Below are positions 18,099 through 39,845 of a stretch of 45,595 nt of DNA, one piece after another; positions within the stretch are counted from its first letter, which is position 1, and each line of letters begins with the position of its first letter. Location: assembly GCA_016210325.1 (NCBI GenBank), contig JACQUK010000141.1, forward strand, positions 1 to 45,595, given 5' to 3'. Made by a program: the position numbers and the translations under genes. Below the pieces are notes generated by a model. That model saw only the letters and a list, made by a program, of their open reading frames with translations, made no database searches and was not told the DNA's origin. Source of the DNA: Chloroflexota bacterium. Its GTDB lineage: Bacteria; Chloroflexota; Dehalococcoidia; Lucifugimonadales; HRBIN23.

Positions 18099-19625
18099 TT
18101 GCTGGCCAAGGTGCTCACCTGCGCCGTGGTGGGGCTGGAGGGTGCCATCGTCGAGGTGGAGGTGGACATCTCGCCGGGGCTGCCCGCCTTCACCGTCGTG
18201 GGCCTGGCCGACACCGCCGTCCAGGAGGCCCGGGAGCGGGTGCGGGCAGCGGTCCGCAACTCTGGCTGCGAGTTCCCCATGCGTCGCATCACCGTCAACC
18301 TGGCTCCCGCCGACCTCAAGAAGGAAGGCCCCTCGTACGACCTGCCCATTGCCGTCGGGCTGCTCCAGTCCTCCGGCCAGGTCCCCTCGGACTCAAGCAA
18401 AGCCGTGTTCCTGGGCGAGCTGGGGCTGGACGGCAACCTGCACCACACCAACGGGGTATTCCCTATGGTGGCCCTGGCCCGCGATGTCGGGACTGGGACC
18501 GTCTTCATACCATCAGCAGACGCCAAGGAGGCGGCGCTGGTGCAGGGTGTCACCGTGGTGCCGGTGGCCACCCTGGCAGAGCTGGTGGCCCACCTGCGCG
18601 GCGAGAAGGCCATCCCACCCTATACAGCTCAGCCTCCGGAGGCACCAGCCGTCCAGCCGACCGCCGCTTCGGCCGACCTTTCGGACATCAAGGGCCAGGA
18701 GCACGCCAAGCGCGCGCTGGAGGTGGCCGCCGCCGGGGGCCATCACCTGCTGCTCACGGGCCCACCAGGGAGCGGCAAGACGCTGCTGGCACGCGCCCTG
18801 GCCTCCATCCTCCCCAGCATGACGCCCGACGAGAGCCTGGAGGTCACCAAGATCTACAGCGTCAGCGGGCTGCTTCCATCCGACACCCCCCTCATCGCCC
18901 AGCGGCCCTTCCGCTCTCCCCACTACACCATCTCCCATGCAGGGCTGGTTGGAGGCGGGCGCTGGCCCCACCCCGGCGAGGTGACCCTGGCCCACCGGGG
19001 CGTGCTCTTCCTGGACGAGATGTCGGAGTTCGGACAGCACATCCTGGAGGTGCTGCGCCAGCCCATCGAGGACAAGGTAGTGACCATCAGCCGCGCCCAG
19101 GGCAGTGTCACTTTTCCCTCCAACTTCACCCTGGTCGGTGCCATGAACCCCTGCTTCTGCGGCAACTATGGCGACCCGGTGAAACCCTGTACCTGCTCCT
19201 CCACGATGGTGGCCCGCTACCAGAAGCGCATCTCCGGCCCCCTGCTGGACCGGATTGACCTCTACGTGGAGGTGCCACGAGTCGAGTACGAGAAGCTCAC
19301 CGGCGAGGCGACCGGCGAGCCTTCAGAAGTCGTCCGCGCCCGGGTGCAGGCGGCCAGGGAGCGGCAGCGCCGCCGCTTTGCGGGCACTCCCCTGCTGTGT
19401 AACGCGGAGATGGGGCCGGCCCAGGTGTGGCAGGTCTGCAAGCTGGAGAGCGGCGCCCAGGGCCTGGCCAAGGTGGCCATGGAGCAGCTCCACCTCTCAG
19501 CCAGGGCTTTCCACCGCACCCTGAAGGTAGCCCGCACCGTCGCCGACCTGGCGGGCGCCGAGACCATCAGCACCGTCCACCTGGCCGAGGCGGTCCAGTA
19601 CAGGCAGCGGGGGGCGGGGCGCTAA
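18099..19625 (+). CDS. comM: YifB/ComM family Mg-chelatase-like AAA+ ATPase
   Basis: This 508-residue protein has the standard ComM length. Its N-terminal lid/Lon-protease-like domain starts KVLTCAVVGLEGAIVEVEVD and includes GLPAFTVVGLADTAVQEARE. Walker A is GPPGSGKT (from residue 221), Walker B LFLDEM (about 302-307), and the MNPCFCGNYGD...C-C segment (about 348-370) is the zinc-like insert of the family. The C-terminus is a helical Mg-chelatase domain. ComM is a hexameric helicase that promotes branch migration in natural transformation. TTG 18099 follows CCAGGAGG. Three degenerate copies of its 3' end lie downstream. Confidence 0.93.
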   Translation: MLAKVLTCAVVGLEGAIVEVEVDISPGLPAFTVVGLADTAVQEARERVRAAVRNSGCEFPMRRITVNLAPADLKKEGPSYDLPIAVGLLQSSGQVPSDSSKAVFLGELGLDGNLHHTNGVFPMVALARDVGTGTVFIPSADAKEAALVQGVTVVPVATLAELVAHLRGEKAIPPYTAQPPEAPAVQPTAASADLSDIKGQEHAKRALEVAAAGGHHLLLTGPPGSGKTLLARALASILPSMTPDESLEVTKIYSVSGLLPSDTPLIAQRPFRSPHYTISHAGLVGGGRWPHPGEVTLAHRGVLFLDEMSEFGQHILEVLRQPIEDKVVTISRAQGSVTFPSNFTLVGAMNPCFCGNYGDPVKPCTCSSTMVARYQKRISGPLLDRIDLYVEVPRVEYEKLTGEATGEPSEVVRARVQAARERQRRRFAGTPLLCNAEMGPAQVWQVCKLESGAQGLAKVAMEQLHLSARAFHRTLKVARTVADLAGAETISTVHLAEAVQYRQRGAGR

Positions 19626-22324: not shown

Positions 22325-22695
22325 GTACCAGCGCCGCACTCTCCGGCCCCCTGCTGGACCGGATTGACCTCTACGTGGAGGTGCCACGGGTCGAGTACGA
22401 GAAGCTCACCGGCGATGCGACCGGCGAGCCTTCAGAGGTCGTCCGCGCCCGAGTGCAGGCGGCCAGGGAGCAGCAGCGCCGCCGCTTTGCGGGCACCCCG
22501 CTGCTGTGCAACGCGGAGATGGGGCCGGCCCAGGTGTGGCAGGTCTGCAAGCTGGAGAGCGGCGCCTAGGGCCTGGCTAAAGCGGCCATGGAGCAGCTCC
22601 ACCTCTCAGCCAGGGCCTTCCACCGCACCCTGAAGGTGGCCTGCACCGTCGGCGACCTTTCGGCAGGCTCAAGGCAGGCTCTGGCGGGTGTCGAG
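22325..22695 (+). pseudogene. comM 3'-end remnant D
   Basis: About 370 bp match comM from codon position 377 to near its end (19229-19556), roughly nine bases in ten. The stretch is open from 22375 (MEVPRVEYEKLTGDATGEPS...) but stops at TAG 22567-22569, and an insertion of about 24 bp (TTTCGGCAGGCTCAAGGC...) lies before the end. The upstream 20 bases are frame-shifted against comM. It is therefore a decayed copy. It ends 50 bp from the znuB stop. Confidence 0.88.
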
Positions 22696-22744: not shown

Positions 22745-23581
22745 TTACCTTTCCCCCCGCGCCACGGGCCGCAGCACTAGCTTTGCTGCCGCCTTGCCCA
22801 GGGTCACCGCCAGCAGCACGGCCAACGACACCAGCACCACCGCACCGCCGGCCGCCAGCTCCCAGTAGTAGGCGGCGGTCAGGCCAACCAGCACGGAGAA
22901 GACCCCGATGCCTACGGCGATGAGCACCGCTGTGCGGAACCCCCGGGCCACCTGAAGGCTGGCCAGCACCGGGATGACCATCAGTGCCCCCACCAGCAGC
23001 ACCCCAACCACGCGCATGGACAGGGTCACCGTGGCCCCGGTCAGGACGGCCATGCCCAGGTTCACCCAACCCACCGGGACGCCGCTGACGCGCGCCAGGT
23101 CGGGGTCGAAGGTGGTCTGCACCAGCTCCGTATAGAAGAGCACGATGAAGGCCAGGACCAGCGCCGCCAGCCCCGCGATGAGCCACAGGTCCAGCCAGCC
23201 CACAGTGACGATGCTGCCGAAGAGGTAGTTGAACAGGGAGGCGTTGAAGCCGCCCGCCAGGCTGATGACCACCAAGGCAACGGCCAGGGCGGTGTACAGG
23301 AACAGGGCCAGGGCCGCCTCGCCGTACAAACGGCCAGAGGCCCGCAGCCGCTCGATGATGGCAGCGGCCGTGACCGAGGTGGCCAGCGCGGTCAGGGGTG
23401 GGAAGACCCTGGTCAGCAGCCCGATCGCCACCCCCGCCAGGGCCACGTGGGACAGGCTGTCGGCAATGAGGGAGAGGCGCCGCAGCACCAGGAACACCCC
23501 CAGGGCGGGTGCGACCACGCCTACCAGGGTGCCCGCGATGAACGCCCGCACCATGAAACTGTAGGTGAAGACCTCAGGCAT
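22745..23581 (-). CDS. znuB: Zinc/manganese ABC transporter permease, ZnuB-like
   Basis: This 278-residue inner-membrane permease of the ZnuB/MntB family has eight or so hydrophobic helices. It opens FMVRAFIAGTLVGVVAPALG and LSLIADSLSHVALAGVAIGL, which hold the conserved family pattern (the latter includes D-x-L-x-H-x-x-L). The C-terminal end has ALMVIPVLASLQVARG. It forms the channel for the ZnuC ATPase. It is separated from znuC by an opposite-strand gene and its leader, so it needs its own promoter in 23582-23640. The ATG at 23581 follows AGGGGGTCGAAC. Confidence 0.88.
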   Translation of the reverse strand: MPEVFTYSFMVRAFIAGTLVGVVAPALGVFLVLRRLSLIADSLSHVALAGVAIGLLTRVFPPLTALATSVTAAAIIERLRASGRLYGEAALALFLYTALAVALVVISLAGGFNASLFNYLFGSIVTVGWLDLWLIAGLAALVLAFIVLFYTELVQTTFDPDLARVSGVPVGWVNLGMAVLTGATVTLSMRVVGVLLVGALMVIPVLASLQVARGFRTAVLIAVGIGVFSVLVGLTAAYYWELAAGGAVVLVSLAVLLAVTLGKAAAKLVLRPVARGER

Positions 23582-23631
23582 GTTCGACCCCCTGTTCCTC
23601 GCCGATGACGAGGTAGCCCTTCGTACGTTGT

Positions 23632-23660
23632 TTGACAGGCCCTGTTCAGGCGCCTAGACT
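23632..23660 (+). promoter_or_regulatory. Promoter of the attenuated small-gene transcript
   Basis: TTGACA (23632-23637), a 17-nt spacer and TAGACT (23655-23660) predict a start near 23667, two bases before the leader ATG. A perfect 13-bp dyad GTATCTCAGATAC (23676-23688) lies just downstream and might be an operator. Confidence 0.45.
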
Positions 23661-23668
23661 ATAAGGCG

Positions 23669-23734
23669 ATGCTTCGTATCTCAGATACCCTGTGCATCTG
23701 TAGCAGCCCCTCTTCCGGGGGAGGGGTCTCCTAG
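23669..23734 (+). CDS. Predicted 21-residue leader peptide with Cys/Ser codons
   Basis: An ATG at 23669 opens a 21-codon frame, MLRISDTLCICSS followed by PSSGGGVS, ending TAG at 23732-23734. Two Cys codons (TGC 23693, TGT 23699) and Ser codons lie just before stem segment 1. The stop falls directly after segment 2 (23717-23726). That is the geometry of trp-type attenuators. Only a weak AAGGCG precedes the ATG, as the start is close to the predicted transcript end. Confidence 0.45.
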   Translation: MLRISDTLCICSSPSSGGGVS

Positions 23735-23801
23735 CGCCACGCTCTCAGCACGACCTGCGAGGCCCCTCTCCGCAGCATGTTGGAAGAGGGGCTTTTGTTT
23801 T
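23705..23801 (+). terminator. Four-segment transcription attenuator
   Basis: Segment 1 is 23705-23716 (AGCCCCTCTTCC), segment 2 is 23717-23726 (GGGGGAGGGG), segment 3 is 23761-23771 (GGCCCCTCTCC) and segment 4 is 23782-23793 (GGAAGAGGGGCT), followed by TTTTGTTTT. Segments 3:4 form a terminator with a one-base bulge, 1:2 and 2:3 are alternative pairs, and 1:4 are perfectly complementary over 12 bp. It lies between leader peptide and the gene at 23840. Confidence 0.6.
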
Positions 23802-23839
23802 GGGCATCGCCCTGCGAATCTCACTTGAGTGGAGGAACC

Positions 23840-24130
23840 ATGTCCCTGTTCGTGGTCCAGCACAAGCACGCCGCCGAGACCTGCCCCGCCGGCCATCCGC
23901 AGATGGGGCCAATGCTGCTGAAACACCTGTCCCCGACCAACACCTCCAGGTTCGGCATCAAGGTCCACGGTGAGGCCGTCGTGAACGGCGGCCACACTTT
24001 CTACCTGGTCCTGGAGGCCCAGGGCGCCGAGGTGGTCAAAGAGTTCATGGCCCCCTTCTACCAGGCTGGCACCGTGGAGGTCTGGCCCGCCAGCACCTGC
24101 GAGCAGGTGGTCGCAAGGGCCGGGTGCTAG
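23840..24130 (+). CDS. Hypothetical small His/Cys-rich protein
   Basis: This is a 96-residue unknown. It opens MSLFVVQHKHAAETCPAGHP, placing three His and one Cys in the first 20 residues, and ends with two more Cys (STCEQVV...AGC). The order strand-helix-strand (FYLVLEAQG)-helix (VVKEFMAPFYQ) suggests a small dimeric alpha/beta-barrel fold. A metal or thiol role is possible in view of the surrounding zinc locus, but is not shown. GGAGG lies 4 nt before the ATG at 23840; an ATG at 23777 within the terminator hairpin is rejected. It is read opposite to znuC and znuB. Confidence 0.6.
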   Translation: MSLFVVQHKHAAETCPAGHPQMGPMLLKHLSPTNTSRFGIKVHGEAVVNGGHTFYLVLEAQGAEVVKEFMAPFYQAGTVEVWPASTCEQVVARAGC

Positions 24131-24161
24131 CCGGCGGCGCTCCAGGTCACGCCGCCCATCG

Positions 24162-24206
24162 CTATGCAGGCCCGGAGGCGCCACCTCGGCGGCCGGGCCC
24201 GCATAG
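24162..24206. terminator. Bidirectional hairpin between convergent genes
   Basis: CTATGC (24162-24167) pairs with GCATAG (24201-24206), and GGCCCGG (24169-24175) with CCGGGCC (24193-24199), giving a long GC-rich stem. It lies between the stop of the small gene (24130) and the stop of znuC (24222). Confidence 0.55.
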
Positions 24207-24221
24207 GGCATCCTCAGCCAG

Positions 24222-24980
24222 CTACCTCTCGTCATGCCGGTGCTCCAACGGGTTCACCGGCACGCCGTAGAGGGCCGACAGGGTGTCCTGGGGCATCTGG
24301 CCCGGCGGCCCATGGAAGACCAGCCTGCCGTTCACACAGGCCACCTTGCTGGCCTCTCGAAAGACCACACCGATGTCATGGGTGACCAGCAGAATGCTCA
24401 GGCCCCGTTCACGGACCAGGGTCCGCAGCATGGCGTAGAAGTGCTCCTCGGCCCCGGCGTCAACCCCCGCGGTAGGCTCGTCCAGAATGAGCAGCCTGGG
24501 ATGCCCCACCAGCGCCCGCGCGATGAGCACCCGCTGCTGCTGTCCTGCGGAGAGGTTTCCGGTCCGCTGGCCCCGCTGTTCCCAAAGGCCCACGGCCTCC
24601 AGGGCATCCCGCACCGAGCGGGGCACCCCCCGCCGGAAGAAGGCCAGCGGGGCGAACCCCTTGTACGCGCCGTGGGCCACCACCTCCGCTACCGTGGCCG
24701 GGAAGGTGTTGTCGAAGCCCGCGGCCCGCTGCGGCACGTACCCGACCCGGTGCCAGTCCCCGAAACCGGCCACCTCCTGGCCGAAGAGGACCACGCGCCC
24801 CCCCTGGGGGTGCAGCAGGCCCAGGGCCAGCTTCACCAGGGTGGTCTTTCCACCCCCATTGGGCCCTACCAGGGCCACCAGCTCGCCCTCGCCGACATTA
24901 AAAGATACATGAGAGACGGACGGCCGTGTGCCGTAGCCAAACGACACGTCCTCAAAGGACAGGAGCGGTGCGCTTCCCAC
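24222..24980 (-). CDS. znuC: Zinc ABC transporter ATP-binding protein, ZnuC-like
   Basis: This 252-residue ABC ATPase has Walker A GPNGGGKTT, signature LSAGQQQRVLIARAL, Walker B LLILDEPTAGVDAG and the switch His in LLVTHDIG. It drives uptake of Zn or Mn through ZnuB. The start is taken as GTG 24980, which shares one base with the znuA stop (TAGTG); a GTG at 24989 is also possible. The longer frame extending to 25331 is inside znuA and is spurious. Confidence 0.9.
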   Translation of the reverse strand: MGSAPLLSFEDVSFGYGTRPSVSHVSFNVGEGELVALVGPNGGGKTTLVKLALGLLHPQGGRVVLFGQEVAGFGDWHRVGYVPQRAAGFDNTFPATVAEVVAHGAYKGFAPLAFFRRGVPRSVRDALEAVGLWEQRGQRTGNLSAGQQQRVLIARALVGHPRLLILDEPTAGVDAGAEEHFYAMLRTLVRERGLSILLVTHDIGVVFREASKVACVNGRLVFHGPPGQMPQDTLSALYGVPVNPLEHRHDER

Positions 24981-25900
24981 TACCGACACTCCATCGCCAA
25001 CCGCAGTGCTTCCAAGTTCTCCGCCATGATGGAGAAGTAGTCCTTGCCAGCAGCCACATCGTCCCGGGTCAGCCCCTCCACGGGATTCAAGACTATCGTC
25101 TGGGCGCCCACCTCGCGGGCTAAGGTCTTGGCCAGCGCCGGGCTTACCAGGGGCTCCACAAAGATGTAGCGCTGGCCAAGCTCCCTGGCCTGCTGGGCAA
25201 TCGAGGCCAACTGCGCCGGGCTTGGCTCCACATCGGTGGAGATCCCGGCGATGGCGATGACCTGGAAGTCGTAGCGGCTGGCCAGGTAGCCCAGAAAGGC
25301 GTGGGACGCAATGACCGTCCGGCGGCCACACTGGGCAAGGCCTTCTCGGTACCGCTGGTCCAGCTCCCCCAGCCTCTGGGCCAGGCGCTGGGCGTTCTCC
25401 TCGAACACCTTCTGCTGGCCGGGGGCGACCCTGATGAGACCGTCCCTGACCGCCGTGGCCTCTTGGGTGGCCAGGATGGGGTCTAGCCAGACATGAGGGT
25501 CGGTCGTGGCCTCACCAGCCTGGCCTTCCGAGGCGGAGATCAGGTCCATCCCGCGGGTGGCTTCCACCACGACCAGGTTGGGCGACTGGACAGCCGCCAG
25601 AGCACGCTCGGCCCAGGGATCGAGCCCCGCACCGTTGTAGACAAACAGGTCCCCAGCGCCAATGTCGGCCATGTCCCGTGGCGATGGCTCCCACTCGTGG
25701 GGCTCCACCCCCAGGGGGACCAGGTTCCTGACCTCCACGGCGTCGCCCCCAATCTGTCGAGCAAAGAACTCCAGCGGGTATGCGGTGGTGACCACGCTCA
25801 CCCTCTCGCCAAGGCCCTCGCGCCCTCTCCCGGCACAGCCACCGGTGGCCAGGGCCACCGCAGCCAGGAGCAGCGCCAACGCCCACACGGGCTTCCTCAT
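24980..25900 (-). CDS. znuA: Zinc ABC transporter substrate-binding lipoprotein, ZnuA-like
   Basis: This 306-residue cluster A-I metal-binding protein has an N-terminal signal (MRKPVWALALLLAAVALATG) and a Cys directly after it as lipid anchor. Metal ligands are His in VEPHEWEPS and in DPHVWLDP, and His in ASHAFLGYLASRY. The acidic His-rich loop of E. coli ZnuA is short or absent. The start at ATG 25900 is preceded by CAGGGATGGCGCGA; an ATG at 25909 is possible. The frame's first start (25939) lies in the candidate Zur box and is rejected. It is the first gene of the znuAC unit. Confidence 0.9.
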   Translation of the reverse strand: MRKPVWALALLLAAVALATGGCAGRGREGLGERVSVVTTAYPLEFFARQIGGDAVEVRNLVPLGVEPHEWEPSPRDMADIGAGDLFVYNGAGLDPWAERALAAVQSPNLVVVEATRGMDLISASEGQAGEATTDPHVWLDPILATQEATAVRDGLIRVAPGQQKVFEENAQRLAQRLGELDQRYREGLAQCGRRTVIASHAFLGYLASRYDFQVIAIAGISTDVEPSPAQLASIAQQARELGQRYIFVEPLVSPALAKTLAREVGAQTIVLNPVEGLTRDDVAAGKDYFSIMAENLEALRLAMECR

Positions 25901-25923
25901 TCGCGCCATCCCTGCAGACTTAC

Positions 25924-25938
25924 TGATACATTGTCTCA
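25924..25938. promoter_or_regulatory. Candidate Zur box upstream of znuA
   Basis: TGATAC-ATT-GTCTCA is a near-palindrome (six of seven pairs). It shares all 12 non-spacer bases with the sequence at 26443-26457 in front of zur. It lies 24 nt before the znuA start. Confidence 0.55.
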
Positions 25939-25981
25939 ATTTGCCGCACGGTTAGCTATGCAATAACCGCTGCCACCCCTG

Positions 25982-30829: not shown

Positions 30830-30867
30830 CACACGGTGGCTGCACGCGCGCGTGCAGCCACCGTGTG
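30830..30867. repeat. 38-bp perfect palindrome
   Basis: The 38 bases 30830-30867 are perfectly self-complementary (CACACGGTGGCTGCACGCG and its complement), with the centre between 30848 and 30849. No T tract follows. It lies 150 bp after the MFS stop and 100 bp before the next promoter, so it may be a terminator or a binding or recombination site. Confidence 0.7.
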
Positions 30868-38018: not shown

Positions 38019-39845
38019 TCACCTGCAAACAGGGCGTATTCTGGCACTCCCACAGGGCGAAGTCAACAAAGTGTCCCGGTCGGTAAAGTTCACTCTTTCC
38101 AAAGAGTGAACTTTACCGCTGACGATGCCCGCTTGACGGGTAGAGAGAAGCGATACCCTTTTGACCGTCCCCGTCAACCGGGCTTGCGGAAACGCCTGGA
38201 GCGAGAGCCTGACTTCCTGCCCCGTCCGAATGCTTAGCACGTCCACCTCGTCCACCACTGCCTGGACTTCCACCTGGGTGGGGTCCACCAGCCGCACGGC
38301 CGCCGTGCTGGCGTTGACGCTATCTCCAACATTCACATTCACAGCAGCCACTACACCGTCGAAAGGCGCCTTTATGGATGCTTTAGCCAGGCGGTCCTTG
38401 GCGTCATCCAGGCCCACCTGAGCATCTCGGAGTCCGACCTTCCGCTGCTCCACCAGCAACGGGTCGGGGCCCGCCGTGGCCGTCGCCAGGTCCTCTTGCG
38501 CCTTGCTCAGAGTAGCCTGGGCCGTGGCGACCCTGGCCTCCTTCAGAGCTACATCTAGCGGGTCGGGGCCGGCCTTCATGGTAGCCAGGGTATCCTCGGC
38601 GGCCTTGAGGCCTGCCTCCGCACTGGCCACCCTGGCCTGCTTCAGGGCCACGTCCAGAAGGTCAGGGCCTACCTTCATGGTAGCCAGGGTATCCTCGGCG
38701 GCCTTGAGGCCCGCCTCCGCGCTGGCCACTCTGGCCTCCTTCAGGGCCACGTCCAGGGTGTCTGGGCCTGCTTGCATGGTATCCAGGGTAACTTGAGCGT
38801 TCCGCAGGGCATCCTGGGCCTGGGTGAGGGCTTTCTGGGCCGCGGTGAGAGCCACAGCCTGCTGGACCTGGGCCGTTGCCAGGCTATTCTTGGCCGCGAC
38901 GAGGTCCTTCCAGGCCTTGTTGGGGTCGCCAAGGTTCGCGGTGTAGTTGGCATCGTATTTTGCCAAGACCGCCGTCGGGTCCAGAAAGATATCCGCATCA
39001 GGTATGAATATGCCGTACTTAAGGAGATGCACTTGCCTATAGGCTTCCTTGCGGCTGGCCAGCAGGTCGCTCGCATCGCTGACGACCTGGGCTTGCACCT
39101 GCTGCGTGTTCTCAAGCTGTTGCTGGCTGTTGTCGGCCGTCTCCCTGGCCCACTGGACGTTCGCTGAGGCCGACGCCACATCCGCCGGGGTGTAAGGCGC
39201 CCTGGCTTTGTCCAGCGCATCCTGGGCTGCCTGGAGCTGGGACTGGGCGCTGACCACTGCCTCTTCTTGTTTCTTGACGTCCTGGTCAGTATAGGGGGCC
39301 TTGGCCTTGTCCAATGCATCCTGGGCTGCCTGGAGCTGGGACTTGGCGGTGGCTACCGCTTCTTCTTGCTTCTTTATGTCCTGGTCAGTGTAGGGGGCCT
39401 TGGCCTTGCCCAGCGCGTCCTGGGCTGCTTGAAGCTGGGACCTGGCGCTGGCTACCGCTTCCACAGCCTTGGCCTGGCTCAACCCCTGGTCCGCCGGCTG
39501 CACGGTCTCGTCCAGCGCTTGCTGGGCGCTCTTCAGATTGTATTCAGCTTGGGCTACCGCCTTTTCCAACGACGCCGTGTCCAGGCTGGCGAGGGCCTGG
39601 CCTGCTTTGACCGCCGCCCCTTCCTGGACTACCACCTCCTTGACCGTCCCCACGCTGCCAAAAGTGAGTGTTGCCTGGTGTGGCAGAGAGACATTGCCTG
39701 ACGATGCCACCGAGACCTCGATGGTACCCCTGGTCACGGCCACAACCTGGTCTTGGGCGGTCTGTTGCGGCGCCTTGCTGCATGCCGTCAACGCTACTGC
39801 CATCATCAACACAACTGCTGTCCCAACTGCGCTCCAGGGCCTCAT
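38019..39845 (-). CDS. HlyD/MacA-type periplasmic adaptor, C-terminally truncated
   Basis: This 608-residue membrane-fusion protein has a lipobox Cys in its signal (AVALTACSKAP), a biotinyl-lipoyl half (GSVGTVKEVVVQEGAAVKAG, re-joined by IKAPFDGVVAAVNVNVGDSV), a very long helical hairpin and VDEVDVLSIRTGQEVRLSLQ. The hairpin contains three AAQDAL.KA(K/R)APYT modules and three copies of an ALKEARVASAEAGLKAAEDT module. The frame leaves family similarity at residue ~581 (STRQAGIVSG), runs through a 38-bp palindrome and stops. The membrane-proximal domain is therefore incomplete. No ABC partner (MacB-like) is next to it. GGAGGGGCAC precedes ATG 39845. Confidence 0.85.
   Translation of the reverse strand: MRPWSAVGTAVVLMMAVALTACSKAPQQTAQDQVVAVTRGTIEVSVASSGNVSLPHQATLTFGSVGTVKEVVVQEGAAVKAGQALASLDTASLEKAVAQAEYNLKSAQQALDETVQPADQGLSQAKAVEAVASARSQLQAAQDALGKAKAPYTDQDIKKQEEAVATAKSQLQAAQDALDKAKAPYTDQDVKKQEEAVVSAQSQLQAAQDALDKARAPYTPADVASASANVQWARETADNSQQQLENTQQVQAQVVSDASDLLASRKEAYRQVHLLKYGIFIPDADIFLDPTAVLAKYDANYTANLGDPNKAWKDLVAAKNSLATAQVQQAVALTAAQKALTQAQDALRNAQVTLDTMQAGPDTLDVALKEARVASAEAGLKAAEDTLATMKVGPDLLDVALKQARVASAEAGLKAAEDTLATMKAGPDPLDVALKEARVATAQATLSKAQEDLATATAGPDPLLVEQRKVGLRDAQVGLDDAKDRLAKASIKAPFDGVVAAVNVNVGDSVNASTAAVRLVDPTQVEVQAVVDEVDVLSIRTGQEVRLSLQAFPQARLTGTVKRVSLLSTRQAGIVSGKVHSLERVNFTDRDTLLTSPCGSARIRPVCR
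38081..38118. repeat. 38-bp inverted repeat inside the HlyD-like 3' end
   Basis: CGGTAAAGTTCACTCTTT (38081-38098) and its exact complement (38101-38118) flank a central CC. It begins where the HlyD-like protein loses its similarity to the family and lies 74 bp from MITE copy C. Confidence 0.7.

Follow-up and report, generated by a model that had tools for sequence, protein, structure and literature searches.

The window that was analyzed, a stretch of 45,595 nt from a Chloroflexota bacterium, contains a leader at positions 23632 to 23801 in front of a gene for a small protein, and the question is whether this leader is a regulatory switch and, if so, to which signal it responds. In the initial annotation it had been read as an attenuator that senses cysteine by the logic of the trp leader, and a link to zinc had been suggested because of the neighboring genes. 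Its promoter, terminator, fold, reading frame and phylogenetic distribution were therefore analyzed.

Promoter, terminator and fold of the leader

A sigma-70-type promoter, TTGACA-N17-TAGACT, was found by a consensus scan on the forward strand at 23632-23660, with 10 of 12 matches (TTGACA at 23632-23637, a spacer of 17 nt, and TAGACT at 23655-23660). The scan detected three promoter-like sites in 4.7 kb, including this one, compared to 0.3 expected from shuffled sequences. The proposed promoter was thus well above chance, and its coordinates are correct. Based on the usual distance from the -10 box, the transcript is predicted to start at about 23666-23669, which is at the ATG of a short open reading frame (ORF) or at most 3 nt away from it. 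The distance from this predicted 5' end to the ATG of the downstream gene, which encodes a DUF3303 protein, is about 180 nt in the window. In several close relatives, the ATG of the DUF3303 gene is preceded by -10-like hexamers at a distance of about 30-46 nt, and the positions of these hexamers suggest that the respective mRNAs have short 5' ends.

The second element is an intrinsic terminator on the forward strand at 23762-23801, i.e., a GC-rich hairpin with the U-tract TTTTGTTTT at 23793-23801. It lies about 135 nt past the promoter and before the start of the DUF3303 ORF. When a 331-kb sample of this genome (the window plus 20 further stretches) was scanned, it ranked in the top tier, together with clear intrinsic terminators. 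Two relatives also have similar hairpins with T-runs 3' of open reading frames, namely L100 (GGCCCCTCTTCC..GGAAGAGGGGCTTCTTTTTG) and L103 (AAAGCCCCTCTCC..GGGAGAGGGGCTTTTGCATTTTG, immediately past the stop codon). Judged from its sequence, the premature terminator looks genuine. An origin from a repeat element was considered and rejected, as the leader is single-copy in the genome and CCCCTCT words showed no enrichment in the 331-kb sample. A T-box riboswitch was also rejected; the motif UGGA is present in the terminator loop, but there was no match to the covariance model.

The initial annotation had described four segments, and all of their coordinates match the sequence: segment 1 (AGCCCCTCTTCC, 23705-23716), segment 2 (GGGGGAGGGG, 23717-23726), segment 3 (GGCCCCTCTCC, 23761-23771) and segment 4 (GGAAGAGGGGCT, 23782-23793), all on the forward strand. 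The perfect complementarity of segments 1 and 4 over 12 nt was also verified. Segment 1 can pair with 2 as well as with 4, segment 3 with 2 or 4, and segment 4 with 3 or 1. The leader RNA is predicted to fold with -62.4 kcal/mol, while shuffled sequences gave -46.9 +/- 4.0 kcal/mol (z -3.9), and none of the 200 shuffles reached its value. The minimum-energy state is, in contrast to the proposed choice between 3:4 and 2:3, a single nested hairpin with 1:4 outside and 2:3 inside. This nested 1:4 stem abuts the U-tract in the same way as 3:4 does, and it is therefore predicted to be a terminator as well, so that segment 4 would close a terminator stem with either partner. The proposed 3:4 terminator was supported, and the 2:3 antiterminator is formally possible; however, 2:3 cannot coexist with 3:4 but can do so with 1:4, and according to the predicted folds this combination would itself terminate. 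The fold energies were -14.3 kcal/mol for the stretch with 1:2 only, -24.5 kcal/mol for the stretch with 3:4 only, and about -53 kcal/mol for 1:4 together with 2:3. The 2:3 hairpin (-30.1 kcal/mol) can form before segment 4 has been made.

The possible leader reading frame and predicted effects of ribosome stalling

The possible leader ORF has 21 codons (MLRISDTLCICSSPSSGGGVS, 23669-23734, forward strand), with the ATG at 23669, the stop codon TAG at 23732-23734 and Cys codons at 23693 and 23699, exactly as initially annotated. Since the predicted transcription start is at the ATG or within 3 nt of it, translation from this promoter would be nearly leaderless. No Shine-Dalgarno (SD) site was found in a usable position, and the ATG is predicted to be buried in the stem of a 5' hairpin at 23668-23698 (forward strand, GAUGC..GCAUC with GUAUC..GAUAC above, -9.1 kcal/mol), which is also part of the minimum-energy fold of the whole leader. 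Leaderless genes have been detected in 4 of 12 published Chloroflexi genomes and comprised about 5% of the genes (PMC3160421). In the sample of the genome studied here, no excess of TANNNT was observed 6-9 nt before 182 ATG starts, which were uncurated.

The two Cys codons do not form a run, but are interrupted by an Ile codon (TGC-ATC-TGT). An ORF of 8-30 codons that starts within the first 45 nt was present in 44% of shuffled intergenic regions, and in 38% of the shuffles such an ORF had a residue repeated within three positions. A doubling of Cys within three positions was much rarer (1.4% of shuffled leaders). However, the density of Ser and of Gly in the peptide equals that of Cys. Cys is a post-hoc pick, one choice among many.

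To mimic the masking of the RNA by a ribosome, everything upstream of a chosen position was treated as unavailable, and the pairing at the base of the terminator stem was computed for the remaining RNA. In this thermodynamic model, the base was about 100% paired with free ends from 23667 to 23706, it was paired in 6-42% of the ensemble with the RNA free from 23709-23712 (6% at 23711), and it was again paired to more than 94% from 23713. At equilibrium, the modeled terminator thus opens only in a window of about 5 nt of free 5' ends, which could be widened by slow refolding of 2:3. The edge of a ribosome lies about 12-13 nt beyond the first base of the A-site codon. In the model, a stall at the first Cys codon left the terminator fully formed, while stalling at the second one would place the free end in or near the opening window. 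Only the second stall would clearly disrupt the terminator, since segment 4 has segment 1 as an alternative partner to segment 3. A stall at the Ser codons after the second Cys would mask segment 1 more completely. The expectation that a stall at the Cys codons frees segment 2 would thus apply to the second of them, but not to the first. A ribosome that finishes the ORF would leave 3:4 intact, as had been proposed from the position of the stop codon. According to these calculations, the leader design is default-off, irrespective of whether it is translated.

Absence from relatives and competing explanations

The DUF3303 protein was used to search one public genome set as well as samples of the class (393 genomes) and of the order (250 genomes), and many homologues were found. 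The upstream regions of 30 relatives were compared (44-70% protein identity), 29 of which are distinct (L002 and L068 are the same). Upstream of the gene, neither the leader nor its peptide nor a terminator of a comparable kind was found in any of the 29 distinct relatives. No convincing homologue of the leader DNA was found in these order and class samples; apart from the leader, the search returned only short matches at scattered places, and the best match covered the terminator hairpin alone. A broader hairpin scan yielded the window and one relative with a weak hairpin (L069), while shuffled sequences gave 1.6 matches per 29. The stems and the frame are thus missing in all 29 distinct relatives examined, although these keep the gene. 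This is the result that the initial annotation had named as refuting it, and it argues strongly against a conserved regulatory role; a recent, lineage-specific role would still fit this distribution.

Unrelated short frames with two close Cys were seen in three relatives. A short Cys-Cys frame in L069, at about 1810-1886 on the reverse strand, is MVRCCFGYRRLLKWRTFL, which lies inside a hairpin that ends with TTTTTG before the DUF3303 gene. It was rejected as a counterpart of the leader, because it follows a tRNA-like 3' end and the hairpin occurs at the rate of shuffled sequences; the hairpin is possibly a tRNA terminator.

With modest confidence, we favor a premature intrinsic terminator that is specific for this lineage and lies between the promoter and the DUF3303 gene, acting mainly as a default-off brake with leaky read-through and probably without a dedicated release signal. 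RNA synthesis would begin near 23667, and the 2:3 hairpin would be the first fold as the RNA emerges. Segment 4 would then close on segment 1, or 3:4 would form after 1:2. Either way, a GC-rich stem would stand against the U-tract, and most transcripts would end near 23801. The DUF3303 gene would be expressed by leaky read-through. The four-way complementarity would stem from two near-repeats of one C-rich/G-rich hairpin, the sequence of which is also that of an ordinary-looking terminator at gene ends in relatives. The promoter above chance, the top-tier terminator, the fold with a z of -3.9 that permits termination for nearly all free 5' ends, the similar hairpins in L100 and L103, the lack of the leader in the 29 relatives, the lack of a convincing DNA homologue in the order and class samples and the lack of an Rfam family argue for this brake. 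We infer transcription, termination efficiency and the lack of a dedicated releasing signal; the sequence, the predicted folds, the absence from relatives and the gene position inside the znu operon are direct results. Against a plain brake, a terminator about 135 nt past a promoter together with a 2:3 hairpin that excludes 3:4 has the look of a regulated attenuator, and a young regulatory element would equally explain the absence from relatives.

Three other explanations were weighed against this brake. Promoter, compact fold and terminator form a complete transcription unit, and the leader might be a stand-alone gene for a short RNA (about 135 nt) that just happens to precede the DUF3303 gene. 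This is unlikely, as the promoter scan revealed no separate promoter for the DUF3303 gene between 23801 and 23840, and RNA homologues were lacking in the order and class samples. Rather improbable is also another kind of switch, in which a protein, a small molecule or an RNA binds the 5' hairpin or segment 1 and frees 2:3 for read-through. The default-off design, the accessible 5' hairpin and the narrow condition for antitermination, i.e., the masking of segment 1, would be in accordance with it. However, the leader had no Rfam match at the gathering threshold, and at a relaxed threshold (E up to 5) the only match was to serC, on the other strand and below the cut-off of that family. In addition, the order and class samples contained no homologue that could reveal a conserved binding site.

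The proposed trp-type attenuator, in which a ribosome that lacks charged tRNA-Cys (or tRNA-Ser) stalls at the second Cys or at Ser, masks segment 1 and frees 2:3, appears quite improbable. The opening of the modeled terminator near the position of the second-Cys stall, the formation of 2:3 before segment 4 exists, the position of the leader stop and the rarity of two Cys within three residues speak for it. On the other side are the missing run of Cys codons, the missing SD site, the ATG within a hairpin, the lack of any sign of leaderless starts in the genome sample, the ineffective stall at the first Cys codon, the frequency of some doubled residue by chance, and the absence of leader and ORF from relatives. 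In addition, the DUF3303 gene has no known role in cysteine metabolism and lies outside known amino-acid metabolism. Cysteine attenuation by ribosome stalling is thus mechanically possible for one codon in the model, but is without comparative support, and the original claim of cysteine sensing was not upheld. The full version, a recently evolved cysteine- or serine-responsive ribosome-mediated attenuator in Chloroflexi that controls a His/Cys-containing DUF3303 protein inside a zinc-uptake operon, is highly improbable.

Ribosome-mediated transcription attenuators of the trp/his/leu type are known from Enterobacteria, and for trp from Corynebacterium and Streptomyces (PMC1262725). The leader shares with them a promoter, a short ORF, potentially mutually exclusive hairpins and an intrinsic terminator before the structural gene. 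In contrast to them, it has no tandem regulatory codons and no SD site for its ORF, its segment 1 can form a terminator stem with segment 4 as well, the gene is outside amino-acid pathways, and the leader is not conserved. Cysteine-responsive leader ORFs without an obvious intrinsic terminator have been predicted (PMC1262725). As far as it is described in the accounts of Canestrari et al. 2020 given in PMC9031893 and PMC13236596, mycobacterial cys operons are preceded by short, leaderless polycysteine ORFs. According to these accounts, the similarity is that a short ORF containing Cys codons, predicted to be nearly leaderless in the present case, precedes a gene, but the mycobacterial ORFs have contiguous Cys codons, precede cys operons and recur across species, whereas the leader has C-I-C, a terminator and an unrelated gene, and occurs in one lineage. 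Since cysteine-responsive leader ORFs are already known, cysteine attenuation would not be a new principle here, even if true.

Uncharacterized premature terminators in 5' regions and "mobile attenuators" are a described class, which includes 5' terminators exapted from ordinary terminators (Naville and Gautheret 2010, PMC2965389). The leader resembles this class in having a 5' intrinsic terminator with an unknown signal before a gene, and its terminator may likewise have been exapted from an ordinary one; the published candidates, however, had been identified because they recur within a gene family in different species, and the leader is one occurrence. If it is regulated, an ordinary terminator hairpin that became nearly duplicated would have given rise to attenuation within a short time, which would be one birth route for switches. 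As it stands, the leader illustrates a pitfall: a tandem of two similar hairpins by itself creates an attenuator-like pairing of four segments, and short ORFs in which an amino acid is doubled often arise by chance.

The DUF3303 gene inside the zinc-uptake operon

The gene downstream of the terminator (23840-24130, forward strand, 96 aa) had been described as an unknown His/Cys-rich gene in a znu locus. It does lie between znuC and znuB, and it can now be assigned to DUF3303 (PF11746, Pfam E 4.4e-7). Its ATG is preceded by the SD sequence GGAGG. In an alignment of 29 sequences, H10, C15, H52 and C87 were invariant; a search for solved structures of the protein found none.

The divergent neighbor is a gene for a znuB-type permease (ABC-3, identified by Pfam; 22745-23581, reverse strand), which is outside the control of the leader, and the convergent neighbor is a gene for a znuC-type ATPase (24222-24980, reverse strand), identified by Pfam and by synteny in relatives, where it is followed by znuB in the same direction. 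The DUF3303 gene and its own promoter have the reverse orientation between the two. At 22745-25939 of the window it splits a znu operon that is collinear in relatives. In the znu-bearing relatives that were checked, znuA (or zur), znuC and znuB all have the same orientation and enclose no DUF3303 gene; znuB either follows znuC immediately or is separated from it by at most about 280 nt. Conversely, no relative examined had the DUF3303 gene beside znuA or znuB, with most loci covering only about 1.5 kb on each side; ATPases near the DUF3303 genes of L008 and L083 match znuC weakly (29-41% identity). This synteny in relatives and the reverse placement in the window indicate that the link to zinc is most likely an accident of insertion, and it was thus not maintained.

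In four relatives (L055, L056, L058 and L098) the gap between znuC and znuB contains GC-rich, repeat-like inserts, such as GGGGGTCTGGGGGTGTCCCCCAGAT...CCCCCTTCC...GGAAGGGGG, and therefore the gap may be a recurrent insertion site. The DUF3303 gene of other relatives is directly 3' of tRNA genes (Gln, Gly; L070, L073 and L078) or of the tRNA-like 3' end mentioned above (L069), and this position is perhaps an insertion site.

Further repeats were observed in the window. A 333-bp stretch from the 3' part of a ComM/Mg-chelatase-like gene is present twice, with 94% identity (19218-19549 and 22326-22658), and one copy sits just downstream of znuB. Direct repeats with a spacing of about 99 bp and 80-86% identity are present at 38460-39461, and two 38-bp palindromes, one of them perfect, at 30830-30867 and 38081-38118.
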